NCBI GenBank assembly: GCA_020438845.1
Contig: JAGQTV010000081.1
Span: forward strand, 1 to 64,000
Direction: 5' to 3'
DNA length: 64,000 nucleotides
From: Mycobacterium sp.
GTDB lineage: Bacteria > Actinomycetota > Actinomycetes > Mycobacteriales > Mycobacteriaceae
The position numbers were made by a program, and so were the translations under genes. The notes under the pieces are model-generated. The model saw only the letters and a list, made by a program, of their open reading frames with translations, had not been told where the DNA came from and made no database searches. Of the stretch, positions 144 to 3,853 are shown piece after piece; position 1 is the stretch's first letter, and each line of letters starts with the position of its first letter.

Positions 144-314
144 TTACGGGACACGCTCCTCGCCAGAAGCCGAACGGCGCCTGCGGCACGCCTCGGAGCA
201 GTACCTCACTTGGTCCCAGTCGCGCGCCCACTTCTTGCGCCACTCGAACGGCCGCCCACAGTTCCGGCAGACCTTCGGCGGGTAGCCGTTTTTCATGCGG
301 GCCTCCGGCGACAT
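144..314 (-). CDS. DUF2256 small zinc-finger-like protein
   Basis: This 56-residue protein carries the core of the DUF2256 family: [16 protein letters not shown], then [15 protein letters not shown]. That gives a C-x2-C and C-x3-C arrangement that looks metal-binding. Family members are about 50-60 residues long, so a start at 314 or at an internal ATG at 296 (50 residues) is right; an open frame continues upstream to 578 but that part is antisense to the TPM gene. It begins 4 bases after the TPM gene stops, so the two are probably co-transcribed. The biochemical role is unknown. From memory, DUF2256 genes are often found near photolyase/cryptochrome genes, and a photolyase-like gene lies 1 kb away here. 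Confidence 0.8.
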
Positions 315-318
315 GGGT

Positions 319-960
319 TCAGCCGAGGGCTTGCAGCCCGGTGGCGGCGGCGACGGCCGCACCGCCGAAGTCGCTGTCGCGAAGTTTCGGTTCGATCGTG
401 TTGCGCCGCAGGTCATTGACCGCCTGTTCCGACCCGTTTGCGGCGGCCGGTGCGACCAGGAAGGCGTACTTCCGTTGCTTGGTCGCGATGGCGAGAATGG
501 CGTCCCGGTCCCCCATCTTGGTGAGGGCACGGGTCTTGCGAGCCCACTCCCCGGGCGGTCCGTCGAAGGCGGCGACATATATCACCCACAACCGGACTTC
601 GCGGGCCGCCTGCAGGCTCTTGACGGCGGACTTCACCTCGGCGGTCTGCTCGCTGCTCAAGGCCCCGAAGGTATCGGTGACAGCCTGGCCGAGTTTCATG
701 GGCGCCGTCGGCGCTGTCGGCGCCTGTGAGGCCCCGGGCGCGGGCGGAGCGGGCTGAACCGTCTCCTGGCTCGTGGCGGCGTTATTCTCCTTGTGGAGAA
801 GGGTTTTGGCACCGAAGCCGATCCCGCCCACGATGGCCAGCCCGGCCACGATGACGGCGATCCGCTTCGGCCAGACGTACTTGATCGGCGGGCGAACCCC
901 CGGGGACTGGCGATCAACAGTGCTGAAGGGATCGGACCCGGGGTGCGGCGGGATGCTCAC
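319..960 (-). CDS. Membrane-anchored TPM-domain protein
   Basis: The 213-residue product has a cytoplasmic N-terminus of about 33 residues, one hydrophobic segment (around residues 34-50), a Pro/Ala-rich linker ([19 protein letters not shown]) and a C-terminal region with TPM-domain features: [13 protein letters not shown], then [24 protein letters not shown] (TPM_phosphatase) domains occur in membrane-associated proteins in bacteria and plants; some have reported phosphatase activity, but activity cannot be inferred here. A type II membrane topology with the domain outside the cell is likely. The start ATG at 960 gives a plausible N-terminus. It is followed directly by the DUF2256 gene. Confidence 0.72.
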
Positions 961-984: not shown

Positions 985-1400
985 GACCCGCCGATCATAG
1001 CCGGACACCCCTGGTCAGAGGGCTTCTCCTGGTACATGACCGCCGCCATCGCCGGCCCGTTGGCGGCCTCCGGATGGCGGATGACGACGCTGGACTGGCC
1101 CGGCCACGGCCGCAGCTCTGACCGTGACCCGGAAGCCGCGATCGGGTTCGGCGAACTGCTGTCCGGAGTACGCGTGGACCGCGGCGGCAGCCAAGTCCTG
1201 CTGGGCAATTCAGTGGGCGGGTTCGCTGCTGTGCACACCGCCGCGCACCGCCCTACCGCGGGTTGCCCGGACTGTACCTGCGCGATCGCAATCCGGGTGT
1301 CGCAGATGCGATCGCCCGCGCCGAGGAGGCCTCCAGGCCGCGTCACACCTGGCGACGGCCTTTGAGCCACGCCGTGTACGAGCTGACGGCGCCCGCTTGT
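985..1400 (+). pseudogene. Degraded alpha/beta-hydrolase gene
   Basis: In frame 1 from about 985 the translation reads as an alpha/beta hydrolase: PIIAGHPWSEGFSWYM, then GWRMTTLDWPGHGRSSDRD and the nucleophile elbow LLGNSVGGFAA (G-x-S-x-G) near 1201-1230. After AAHRP (about 1252) the similarity jumps to frame 3, where GLYLRDRNPGVADAIARAEE (from about 1266) looks like the lid region that normally lies many residues further on. So there is an internal deletion plus a frame change. No clear start codon or ribosome site precedes it. The 3' end of the photolyase-like gene on the other strand overlaps the remnant from 1343. Called a pseudogene by inference from these breaks. Confidence 0.65.
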
Positions 1401-2578
1401 GGCCGCATGAGCCATGGCCACGGGTGCAGTGCGACCAAGTCAAGTCGCGCTGCCCGGTACTTCCAACCGGGAACAGGGGCGAACGTGGTCGCCAGCGGCC
1501 TGCCGTGCAATATCTCGACCGGATCGCCCAACCACAACTGCACTTCCCTACGCGTGGAGAGATCGGCAAGTGACTGCGCGAGGAAGACGAGACGGTTCAC
1601 CGAGAGTCGCAGCGAGCGCAACAGTGGCTGGTCGAACACGAACAGCACCAGAAGATCCGGATACGCTGCGGCTGCTGGGTCACGGTCGCTGAGGCTTTCC
1701 GCAGTGATCCAGACAGCCTCCGGTTCACCCGAAAGTCTTGGCGCCGTGGGACCCGCAGTGGACTCGAGGTCATCATCGCGTTTGAGCCGCTGGTCGGTCA
1801 GCGCGAGCGGCTCACGTTCCTGGTTCGCGGGCCAGTCCGCGATCGGACATTTTCGTTCCAGCGGACAGTTGCCACACAGTCCCGGTGCGCGCTTCTCCAC
1901 CTGCCATCGGGAGAACCCGTAGGCTTTGCCGGTCAGGGCGCCGGCTGTCCACTGCCAGCCCAGCCTGTTCGCCGCGCGGGAACCGTCCAGAAGGTGGCGG
2001 TACATCAGGTCCTCACCGTCGCGCCAGCCGAGTCCCATGCGGACACTCCAGTGCGAAGCGAGCCACATGCGGGCCTGGTTGGTGAGCCACCCATCAGTCG
2101 TCAGCTCTGCCCAGGAGGACTCCAGGCAAAGTGCCGAGGTCTGCCAAGGATTCTCCGGGGCAGCCGTGCGATCCTCGACGGTGTACCGCAGCGACCGAGT
2201 TGACCGTGTTCCCATGCGCGCGTACAGATGTCGCGCGTACTCCTGCCACAGCAATTCGTCGCGGAACTTCGTCACATCGTCGGGCGGACCGTCGGCCACT
2301 CGGTCCCAGACCTCGCGCAGTGTCAGCAGCCCGTGCCGGATGTAAGGCGACAGCCGCGACGAGCCACGACTGGTGTGCGGCCACACGTTGTTGCGCTTTC
2401 GCGCATACCCGCGGACGTCATAGGCCTGCAGGGCCGCGTCAGCGGCCTGCTGGCCACCGCGCATACGCGAGGATGCGCCTGTTGGCACCGGCGTGGCCAT
2501 ATCGCCGAAGTGATCCATCACCCAGGAGTGAATCTCTGAGTCGCCTAGCGGGGGGCCAGGAAGGCGCAGTGGTGTCAT
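1343..2578 (-). CDS. Photolyase-like FAD protein with the alpha/beta domain at the C-terminus
   Basis: The 411-residue product starts with the photolyase/cryptochrome FAD-binding domain rather than the usual antenna domain. Residues 69-83 contain TSRGSSRLSPYIRHG, and 165-212 contain LTNQARMWLASHW and GWQW, the typical FAD-cavity pattern. Residues 288-340 then look like the start of a photolyase alpha/beta domain: VWITAESLSDRDPA, LLVLFVFDQPLL, NRLVFLAQSLADL, followed by LWLGDPVEIL. That order is the reverse of classical photolyases. Four cysteines (C151, C235, C238, C244) could bind an iron-sulfur cluster as in the FeS-BCP/PhrB group. Whether it repairs DNA or senses light is unknown. It lies 6 bases after the FAD oxidoreductase and is probably co-transcribed with it. 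Confidence 0.75.
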   Translation of the reverse strand: MTPLRLPGPPLGDSEIHSWVMDHFGDMATPVPTGASSRMRGGQQAADAALQAYDVRGYARKRNNVWPHTSRGSSRLSPYIRHGLLTLREVWDRVADGPPDDVTKFRDELLWQEYARHLYARMGTRSTRSLRYTVEDRTAAPENPWQTSALCLESSWAELTTDGWLTNQARMWLASHWSVRMGLGWRDGEDLMYRHLLDGSRAANRLGWQWTAGALTGKAYGFSRWQVEKRAPGLCGNCPLERKCPIADWPANQEREPLALTDQRLKRDDDLESTAGPTAPRLSGEPEAVWITAESLSDRDPAAAAYPDLLVLFVFDQPLLRSLRLSVNRLVFLAQSLADLSTRREVQLWLGDPVEILHGRPLATTFAPVPGWKYRAARLDLVALHPWPWLMRPQAGAVSSYTAWLKGRRQV

Positions 2579-2584
2579 CGGGGA

Positions 2585-3853
2585 TCACTCGCCGGCGGCA
2601 GCTGCAGCGCCGATCCCGAGATCAGTCAGCAACGCCTGGGCTGCCCGCCGACCACTGACCAACGCGCCCTGGATCGAGGACGTATCGCGATGATCACCCG
2701 CGACGTACACGCCCTGCGCCGTACGCACAGGCCGCTGCAGTTCGAAGGGCACCGGCATAGCGGGCAATGCATAGGGGATCGGGTAACTCGCGATCAGTTC
2801 CCAGTGCCCCGTCGGTACGCCGTAAAGCCACGCCAGGTGCTTGCGCACGGCGATCTCGGACTCAGGCGTATCCCACACACCGAGCGCAGATGCCGCGACC
2901 AGAGCGCTGCCGGGCGGGGCATAGCCCGGCGCCGCATGCGTGAGCACCACGGTGTTGACGAGCGGTCCACGGCGGGATCCGTCGAGTATGAGGACGGCCT
3001 CGCCGTCGGCGAGGTCTTCAGGCGCGCACGTCGGCCGGTAATACCAGGTCGTGACCGAACGCGCTTCGGGTGCAACGACATCCGCGACAAGACCGGCGGC
3101 GGTCATCGGATCGGTCGCGACAATCACGGCGTCGGCGCTGCAAGCGTCACCGCCGACGACATCGACGGCCCGTGCCGAAGCCGACGCCACCCGGTGGCCG
3201 AGTCGCACATCAAGCCCGGTGGCGAGCTGCTCGGGAATGCGCTGCATGCCCAACGCCGGCACGCCCGGAGTGCCGCGGACGAACGATCTGAGCACCATGT
3301 CCAGGAAGCGCCGTGACGTAGCCAACTCGTGCTCGAGGAAGACCCCGGAGAGGAACGGGCGCAGTACCCGCTCCATCAGCGTGCGATCCGCACCGGCCCG
3401 GCGCAGCGCCTCCTCGCTCGTGACGTCAGGATCGCGACGCAACGATGCCGGCGATCGCAGGGCCCGGGAGGCGGTGTAGGCCCCGAAGCGGGCAGTCGAG
3501 AGAGGTGAGCCGATCGGTGCCATGAGCGAGGCCAGCACCCAGGAGGGCTGCCGACGGGGATCCGCAACCCGCGCCACCCGGCGGCGTTTATCCTGCCCGA
3601 GAACGATGCGCGCCCCCGCCACGAATGGCTTCAGATCAAGGGCGTCGTGGTCGAGGACCCGAGCCCCCTCGGGGTAGGCGGGGTTGTAGAGCTGAAATCC
3701 GCGATCGAGGCGGTACCCGTCGACCACATCGGTGCGGACCCGTCCACCAACCGCATCCGAACCCTCAAGCACGGTGACCTCCACACCGTGTCGACTGAGA
3801 TGTCGAGCGGCTGCGAGCCCGCTCAGCCCTGCACCCACGACAACGACGGCCAT
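2585..3853 (-). CDS. FAD-dependent amine-oxidase-type oxidoreductase
   Basis: The 422-residue protein begins with a flavin Rossmann motif, VVVVGAGLSGLAAARHLSRHG, followed by an acidic strand end (TVLEGSDAVGGRVRT) typical of the amine oxidase/protoporphyrinogen-oxidase-like fold. The C-terminus carries the second FAD motif, GVYVAGDHRDTSSIQGALVSG. The ATG at 3853 was chosen because the Rossmann strand begins at the next residue; the frame stays open to 4624 but that part has no homologous character. The substrate is unknown. The next gene downstream encodes the photolyase-like flavoprotein, which suggests a joint role, possibly in light or redox response (inference). Confidence 0.82.
   Translation of the reverse strand: MAVVVVGAGLSGLAAARHLSRHGVEVTVLEGSDAVGGRVRTDVVDGYRLDRGFQLYNPAYPEGARVLDHDALDLKPFVAGARIVLGQDKRRRVARVADPRRQPSWVLASLMAPIGSPLSTARFGAYTASRALRSPASLRRDPDVTSEEALRRAGADRTLMERVLRPFLSGVFLEHELATSRRFLDMVLRSFVRGTPGVPALGMQRIPEQLATGLDVRLGHRVASASARAVDVVGGDACSADAVIVATDPMTAAGLVADVVAPEARSVTTWYYRPTCAPEDLADGEAVLILDGSRRGPLVNTVVLTHAAPGYAPPGSALVAASALGVWDTPESEIAVRKHLAWLYGVPTGHWELIASYPIPYALPAMPVPFELQRPVRTAQGVYVAGDHRDTSSIQGALVSGRRAAQALLTDLGIGAAAAAGE

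Follow-up and report, generated by a model that had tools for sequence, protein, structure and literature searches.

We analyzed a 64,000-nucleotide stretch of Mycobacterium sp. DNA (assembly GCA_020438845.1, contig JAGQTV010000081.1, positions 1 to 64,000; hereafter the window), and in particular a photolyase-like gene near its start. This gene probably encodes a photolyase of the iron-sulfur (FeS)-bearing, reverse-domain-order branch, i.e., of the SPL/Phr4-5/Phr6 kind. The reversed order of its domains is supported by sequence profiles and by a predicted structure, and its four cysteines are supported as putative iron-sulfur ligands by their invariance and by a column-for-column match with FeS-BCP photolyases. 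The features concerned, including residues of a pocket for the cyclobutane pyrimidine dimer (CPD), are these:

1343..2578, reverse strand: the whole reverse-order photolyase gene, with an ATG start and 411 residues.
1829..2578, reverse strand: N-terminal FAD/DNA-lesion domain, residues 1-250.
1346..1723, reverse strand: C-terminal Rossmann-like α/β domain, residues 286-411, homologous to the antenna domain with which photolyases normally begin.
2126..2128, reverse strand: C151, the first putative [4Fe-4S] ligand, in a FeS-BCP cysteine column.
1847..1876, reverse strand: C235-x2-C238-x5-C244, the other putative [4Fe-4S] ligands, also in FeS-BCP cysteine columns.
1949..2257, reverse strand: CPD-type pocket residues E108, W111, N167, M171 and W210, with flavin residues D198, A203 and N204, from column counts and comparison with class I and FeS-BCP proteins.
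2243-2245 and 1979-1981, reverse strand: the flavin-site residues Q112 and S200, respectively.

A single scan of 84,980 species genomes yielded 255 relatives of the gene, of which the best 80, mostly Actinomycetota by record title, were retained. Alignment A1, to which counts out of 79 refer, comprises the window protein and 78 of these 80 loci (L027 was excluded for X residues and L029 for truncation); its members are 53-78% identical to the window protein. The only Pfam family above cut-off in the window protein was FAD_binding_7 (residues 106-217, E 1.1e-10, 41.7 bits versus 27), which was matched by 79/79 members and whose match was widened to residues 9-218 by profile-profile alignment. 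The FAD-binding domain does come first, as the original prediction had claimed: it begins near residue 9, and the N-terminal α/β domain is absent. The Pfam search gave no match in the window protein to PF00875, which precedes FAD_binding_7 in class I photolyases, up to an E value of 10, and none to PF04244 (DPRP), the N-terminal domain of FeS-BCP photolyases. PF00875 was weak in 11/79 members (best E 0.024), and two Deinococcus relatives had it, below cut-off, towards the C-terminus (E 0.00072 and 0.001).

The photolyase α/β pattern, which had been predicted to come last, is indeed present there and conserved in all 79 sequences, the invariant columns including W290, T292-L296, D300, F313, D316, R329, P370 and G371. 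With hhalign, the C-terminal domain matched the class I α/β domain with a P value of 3.7e-6 (6.5e-7 once two Deinococcus members were added), and a control with reversed columns gave a probability of 0.2 and a P value of 0.28. That the domain is instead an unrelated Rossmann-like domain fused onto the protein might be suggested by a Foldseek search with the isolated domain, which also matched Rossmann folds of other kinds, universal stress proteins among them. However, a universal-stress profile gave a P value of 0.82 (a weak control, with 3 usable sequences from 25 loci), and the 50 matches listed by VIA-align were all photolyases or cryptochromes, 49 of them (not row 49) falling within the N-terminal domain of the matched protein; we regard an unrelated origin as very improbable. 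Class I gave the best α/β match among three profiles tried. A FeS-BCP α/β profile (13/15 proteins) failed to match the C-terminal domain (probability 0.8), but because it missed the class I α/β profile as well (probability 0.7), this is no argument against kinship.

When the class I profile was doubled, it gave one colinear alignment covering residues 9-394 (367 columns, score 165.1). A single copy instead split the match into the FAD part, scoring 137.0, and a separate C-terminal one, scoring 44.8; one continuous alignment with the doubled profile is what a reversed domain order predicts. The AlphaFold2 model of the protein had a mean pLDDT of 94.6 and a pTM of 0.92. The original prediction had spoken of a circular permutation. 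What stands of this, on profiles and structure, is the reversed order; a strict permutation by duplication and trimming is indistinguishable here from a fusion that joined both domains in reverse. Such a fusion of two separate domains is possible, given that phr4 and phr5 are two genes in Synechococcus (PMC9426592; this and the other papers cited by PMC number are used from excerpts).

Actinobacteria, in which it had been proposed to look for the same domain order, do contain it: the full-length order recurs in 78 other aligned loci, and 20/296 genomes drawn evenly from the phylum carry the gene (window genome counted), without internal stops. At its 3′ end, the photolyase gene overlaps with a degraded α/β-hydrolase gene on the opposite strand, which might suggest a non-functional remnant or a mis-assembled fusion; this reading is already refuted by the conservation, and we give it practically no credence. 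Within the genus, the gene occurs in 7/148 genomes (window genome counted), and its distribution is rare and patchy. Several of the closest loci (L002, L003 and L005-L009, from metagenome assemblies) are titled Mycobacterium or Mycolicibacterium. Four other loci from metagenome assemblies (L001, L004, L047 and L066) are titled Bifidobacterium breve, although their genes are close to mycobacterial or other actinobacterial ones, and these titles look wrong. A viral origin of the gene was considered and rejected: a scan of viral_contigs gave 29 pattern matches and no confirmed relatives, and phage records (n = 10) matched only 35-47% of the query, i.e., the FAD part.

C151, C235, C238 and C244 are the only cysteines in the window protein, and the predicted spacing, C-x83-C-x2-C-x5-C, is exact. 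All four are invariant (79/79), the first spacing being x83 in 76/79 and x82 in 3/79. A protein was recognized in 24 of 25 further loci; the exact cysteine pattern, followed by a proline, was present in 23. We aligned these proteins with 10 of the 15 FeS-BCP proteins fetched, and with class I and plasmid-borne proteins. The four FeS-BCP cysteine columns were filled in 13/13 actinobacterial rows used, 2/2 Deinococcus rows and 10/10 FeS-BCP rows used; all 8 class I rows lacked cysteines there, and just one of the three NewPHL-like rows, L116, had a cysteine, in the first column. Weak matches to the Endonuclease III FeS domain (6/79 members, best E 0.29) and to WhiB (5/79, best E 0.068) are expected from such a cysteine motif. 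The proposed closeness to the 4Fe-4S ligands of FeS-BCP proteins is borne out at the level of alignment columns, and the cluster, predicted from sequence, is a putative one.

The residues E108, W111, N167, M171 and W210 are aligned with positions that we take to be the CPD contacts of the A. nidulans photolyase. Four of them were found in 79/79 members and the fifth, M171, in 75/79, whereas the FeS-BCP rows (n = 10) had Q, W, H, L and a mix of W/Y/F, respectively, at the five positions. At E283, N349 and M353 (A. nidulans numbering), 13/13 family rows used had E, N and M, as did the 8 class I rows, and 10/10 FeS-BCP rows used had Q, H and L; N167 stands where the latter carry the histidine. 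Because these residues are kept, the pocket is of the CPD type despite the FeS cysteines, and the CPD is the lesion that we would predict for the actinobacterial branch. A (6-4) photolyase has been predicted for cyanobacterial Phr4/5 from the FeS cysteines, and the UV-C survival pattern of a Synechococcus phr4 mutant has been argued to agree with it (PMC9426592). The occupation of the FeS-BCP columns by all four cysteines would suit the same activity here. However, E, N and M at the three pocket positions speak against it, as does the presence of a DPRP/FeS-BCP type gene in 18/20 carrier genomes already (17/19 plus the window genome, versus 18/119 in a phylum sample that includes some carriers), so that we consider a (6-4) enzyme improbable.

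Two flavin-site residues, Q112 and S200, are invariant (79/79) and lie at the positions of R287 and D382 of A. nidulans, both listed as flavin-binding (PMC9426592). At these positions, R and D occur in the Deinococcus, NewPHL-like and class I rows, and R with A, Y or H in the FeS-BCP rows. This change may reflect an altered flavin potential or a sensor role. The protein might then be a blue-light photoreceptor of the cryptochrome kind, with the same fold used for signaling rather than repair. A PF00875 photolyase gene is also present in 19/19 other carrier genomes tested and in the window genome, so that repair would not be a job unique to this protein, and the uncharacterized CPF2 of Rhodoluna, a possible member of the reverse-order family, is listed among putative light sensors (PMC8591293). 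Nevertheless, a pure sensor would have no need of the CPD-pocket residues that the family conserves; in addition, the amine oxidase gene upstream is adjacent in close relatives only, and the steady neighbor DUF2256 has no signaling role known to us. On balance, a photoreceptor seems rather unlikely, and repair is the reading that we prefer. Two tryptophans, W208 and W185, are also invariant. A third photoreduction tryptophan was sought at W314, but none of the 8 class I rows has Trp in that column either; the region is misaligned, and we draw no claim from it.

We infer that a CPD photolyase of this kind would work as follows. The N-terminal helical domain would bind FAD and a flipped-out CPD; blue light would excite reduced FAD, from which an electron would pass to the dimer, split it and return, and W208 and W185 could supply electrons for photoreduction of the flavin. 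The four cysteines, located where the FAD domain ends, would hold a [4Fe-4S] cluster, as in FeS-BCP proteins. The C-terminal α/β domain, i.e., the former N-terminal antenna domain, would pack against the FAD domain in the manner of ordinary photolyases and may house an antenna pigment such as 8-HDF. More tentatively, the FeS-bearing actinobacterial and Deinococcus SPL branch might have arisen from a class I-like photolyase by a reordering of the domains, with the α/β domain at the other end, and have kept or gained the FeS cluster; in the actinobacterial clade, the invariant double replacement at the flavin site (R to Q, D to S) would perhaps have given a repair enzyme with altered tuning, or a light sensor working with the DUF2256 protein. 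We hold this possibility to be less probable than the assignment to the branch as such.

The gene is surrounded by the following features:

177..293, reverse strand, within the open reading frame at 144-578: DUF2256 gene, encoding a small four-cysteine domain; genomic partner.
319-960, reverse strand: TPM-domain protein that likely has a membrane anchor, between the DUF2256 and photolyase genes.
793-1365 and 1263-1922, forward strand: remnant of the α/β hydrolase, probably a pseudogene (first frame, Abhydrolase_6, E 1.8e-5, just below cut-off; second frame, no match).
2585-3853, reverse strand: Amino_oxidase/NAD(P)-binding protein, encoded upstream of the photolyase gene in the same orientation, with 6 bp between them.

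DUF2256 is the steadiest neighbor of the reverse-order gene. Its match here is the only one in the 4.5-Mb genome and lies ~1.05 kb downstream of the photolyase gene on the same strand. The domain was found by motif in 27/80 loci (the best 80 of 255), so that most loci have no DUF2256 nearby. In samples drawn in the same way, it was above cut-off in 15/20 carriers versus 18/276 other genomes (Fisher 1.9e-12, relatedness ignored). A single frame of L032 (4962-5996, forward strand), immediately preceding the photolyase gene, joins a THAP4-like heme-binding barrel to DUF2256 and DUF3253; in 27/80 loci (26 among the 75 with >700 bp upstream), a protein aligning with the DUF2256-DUF3253 part of this product ends immediately before the photolyase gene, in the same orientation. 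L144 also has DUF2256 close to a DPRP/FeS-BCP type gene. Among the 20 papers listed in a literature search on DUF2256 and photolyases, none contained DUF2256. Frames that by eye we take to resemble ilvB, ilvH and ilvC (upstream) and serA (downstream) recur in about 20 loci.

An operon with the upstream amine oxidase as a general partner was rejected. Of the 106 loci that contain the photolyase gene, 97 reach 1 kb or more upstream of it, and in these the same-strand adjacency within 300 bp is confined to the window's own locus, L081. In L001, L002, L003, L011 and L153, the amine oxidase is divergent and 112-117 bp away by match ends (L001 and L153 are perhaps the same locus), and the difference in orientation is probably the result of a local inversion. 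The window genome also has a class I photolyase (contig C75) and a FeS-BCP type gene (contig C90). It further encodes an FO synthase, recognized by the CofG model above cut-off; this enzyme yields 8-HDF (PMC9178010). The reverse-order gene adjoins a DPRP/FeS-BCP type gene on the same strand in G154 (contig C25) and in G218 (contig C3), both of them carrier genomes.

We compared the protein with known photolyases using a tree of the FAD domain (37 rows, cysteine columns removed, rooted on FeS-BCP by choice). The actinobacterial rows formed one clade (support 100/99), joined at 93/87 by Deinococcus, two plasmid proteins of which are the nearest aligned relatives outside Actinomycetota. The permuted rows lay on one side of a branch with support of only 47/59, and the deep order of the other rows was poorly supported; a clade of all FeS-bearing rows was not rejected (p-AU 0.397). 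The best FAD sequence match was to class I CPD photolyases (A. nidulans, E. coli; 1tez, E 3.3e-24), which share the CPD pocket residues but have the usual domain order, no FeS cysteines, and R287 and D382 in place of Q112 and S200. FeS-BCP proteins (PhrB, CryB), which are prokaryotic (6-4) photolyases, provide the best structural match of the FAD domain and the four cysteines in the same columns, but they have the usual domain order, Q, H and L rather than E, N and M in the pocket, and a long branch in the tree.

NewPHL proteins, described by Emmerich et al. in 2020, reportedly have an inverted topology with a short C-terminal Z-domain. The window protein shares the inverted topology with them, together with two conserved tryptophans, a dyad having been reported for a NewPHL (PMC8948257). 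Phr7 consists of a FAD domain and a C-terminal Z-domain and repairs CPDs on single-stranded DNA (PMC9426592), but it has no FeS cysteines, where the window protein has four. The C-termini of the NewPHL-like alphaproteobacterial plasmid proteins L115 and L116, as a two-sequence profile, gave no match to the C-terminal domain of this family (probability 0.4).

Of the short photolyase-like proteins (SPLs; Xu et al. 2021), a Rhodococcus fascians member has reportedly been shown to have FAD, an FeS cluster and CPD repair. SPLs are described as a class of CPD repair enzymes, and an FeS-cluster SPL as a possible first ancestor (PMC9649867). Like the window protein, they are without an N-terminal α/β domain and have a class I-like FAD domain and FeS cysteines (PMC9649867, PMC9178010). 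SPLs, some with FeS clusters, have been set at the base of the photolyase tree as short forerunners of all photolyases, and their name refers to the absent α/β domain; the window protein, by contrast, carries such a domain at its C-terminus, so that in the actinobacterial branch "short" becomes a poorer indicator of ancestry. In the literature passages searched, we met neither the recognition of this C-terminal domain in that branch nor the flavin-site changes. Cultured bacteria with proteins of the family could reveal whether the reversed antenna domain still harvests light.

The closest parallels in domain order are Phr4/Phr5 and Phr6 of marine Synechococcus and Cyanobium, in which the FAD domain comes first and the photolyase domain last; they also have four FeS cysteines, with spacings of x84, x2 and x5 versus x83, x2 and x5 here (PMC9426592). 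The "new structural variant" of the original prediction was therefore already in print for marine cyanobacteria, and the gene is most likely a well-supported member of this described kind rather than a new invention. Two differences emerge from the excerpts of that paper: Phr4/Phr5 are mostly two separate open reading frames in Synechococcus, whereas there is a single one here, and a (6-4) role is proposed for the cyanobacterial version, whereas the pocket residues here (compared by description rather than by alignment) predict CPD repair.
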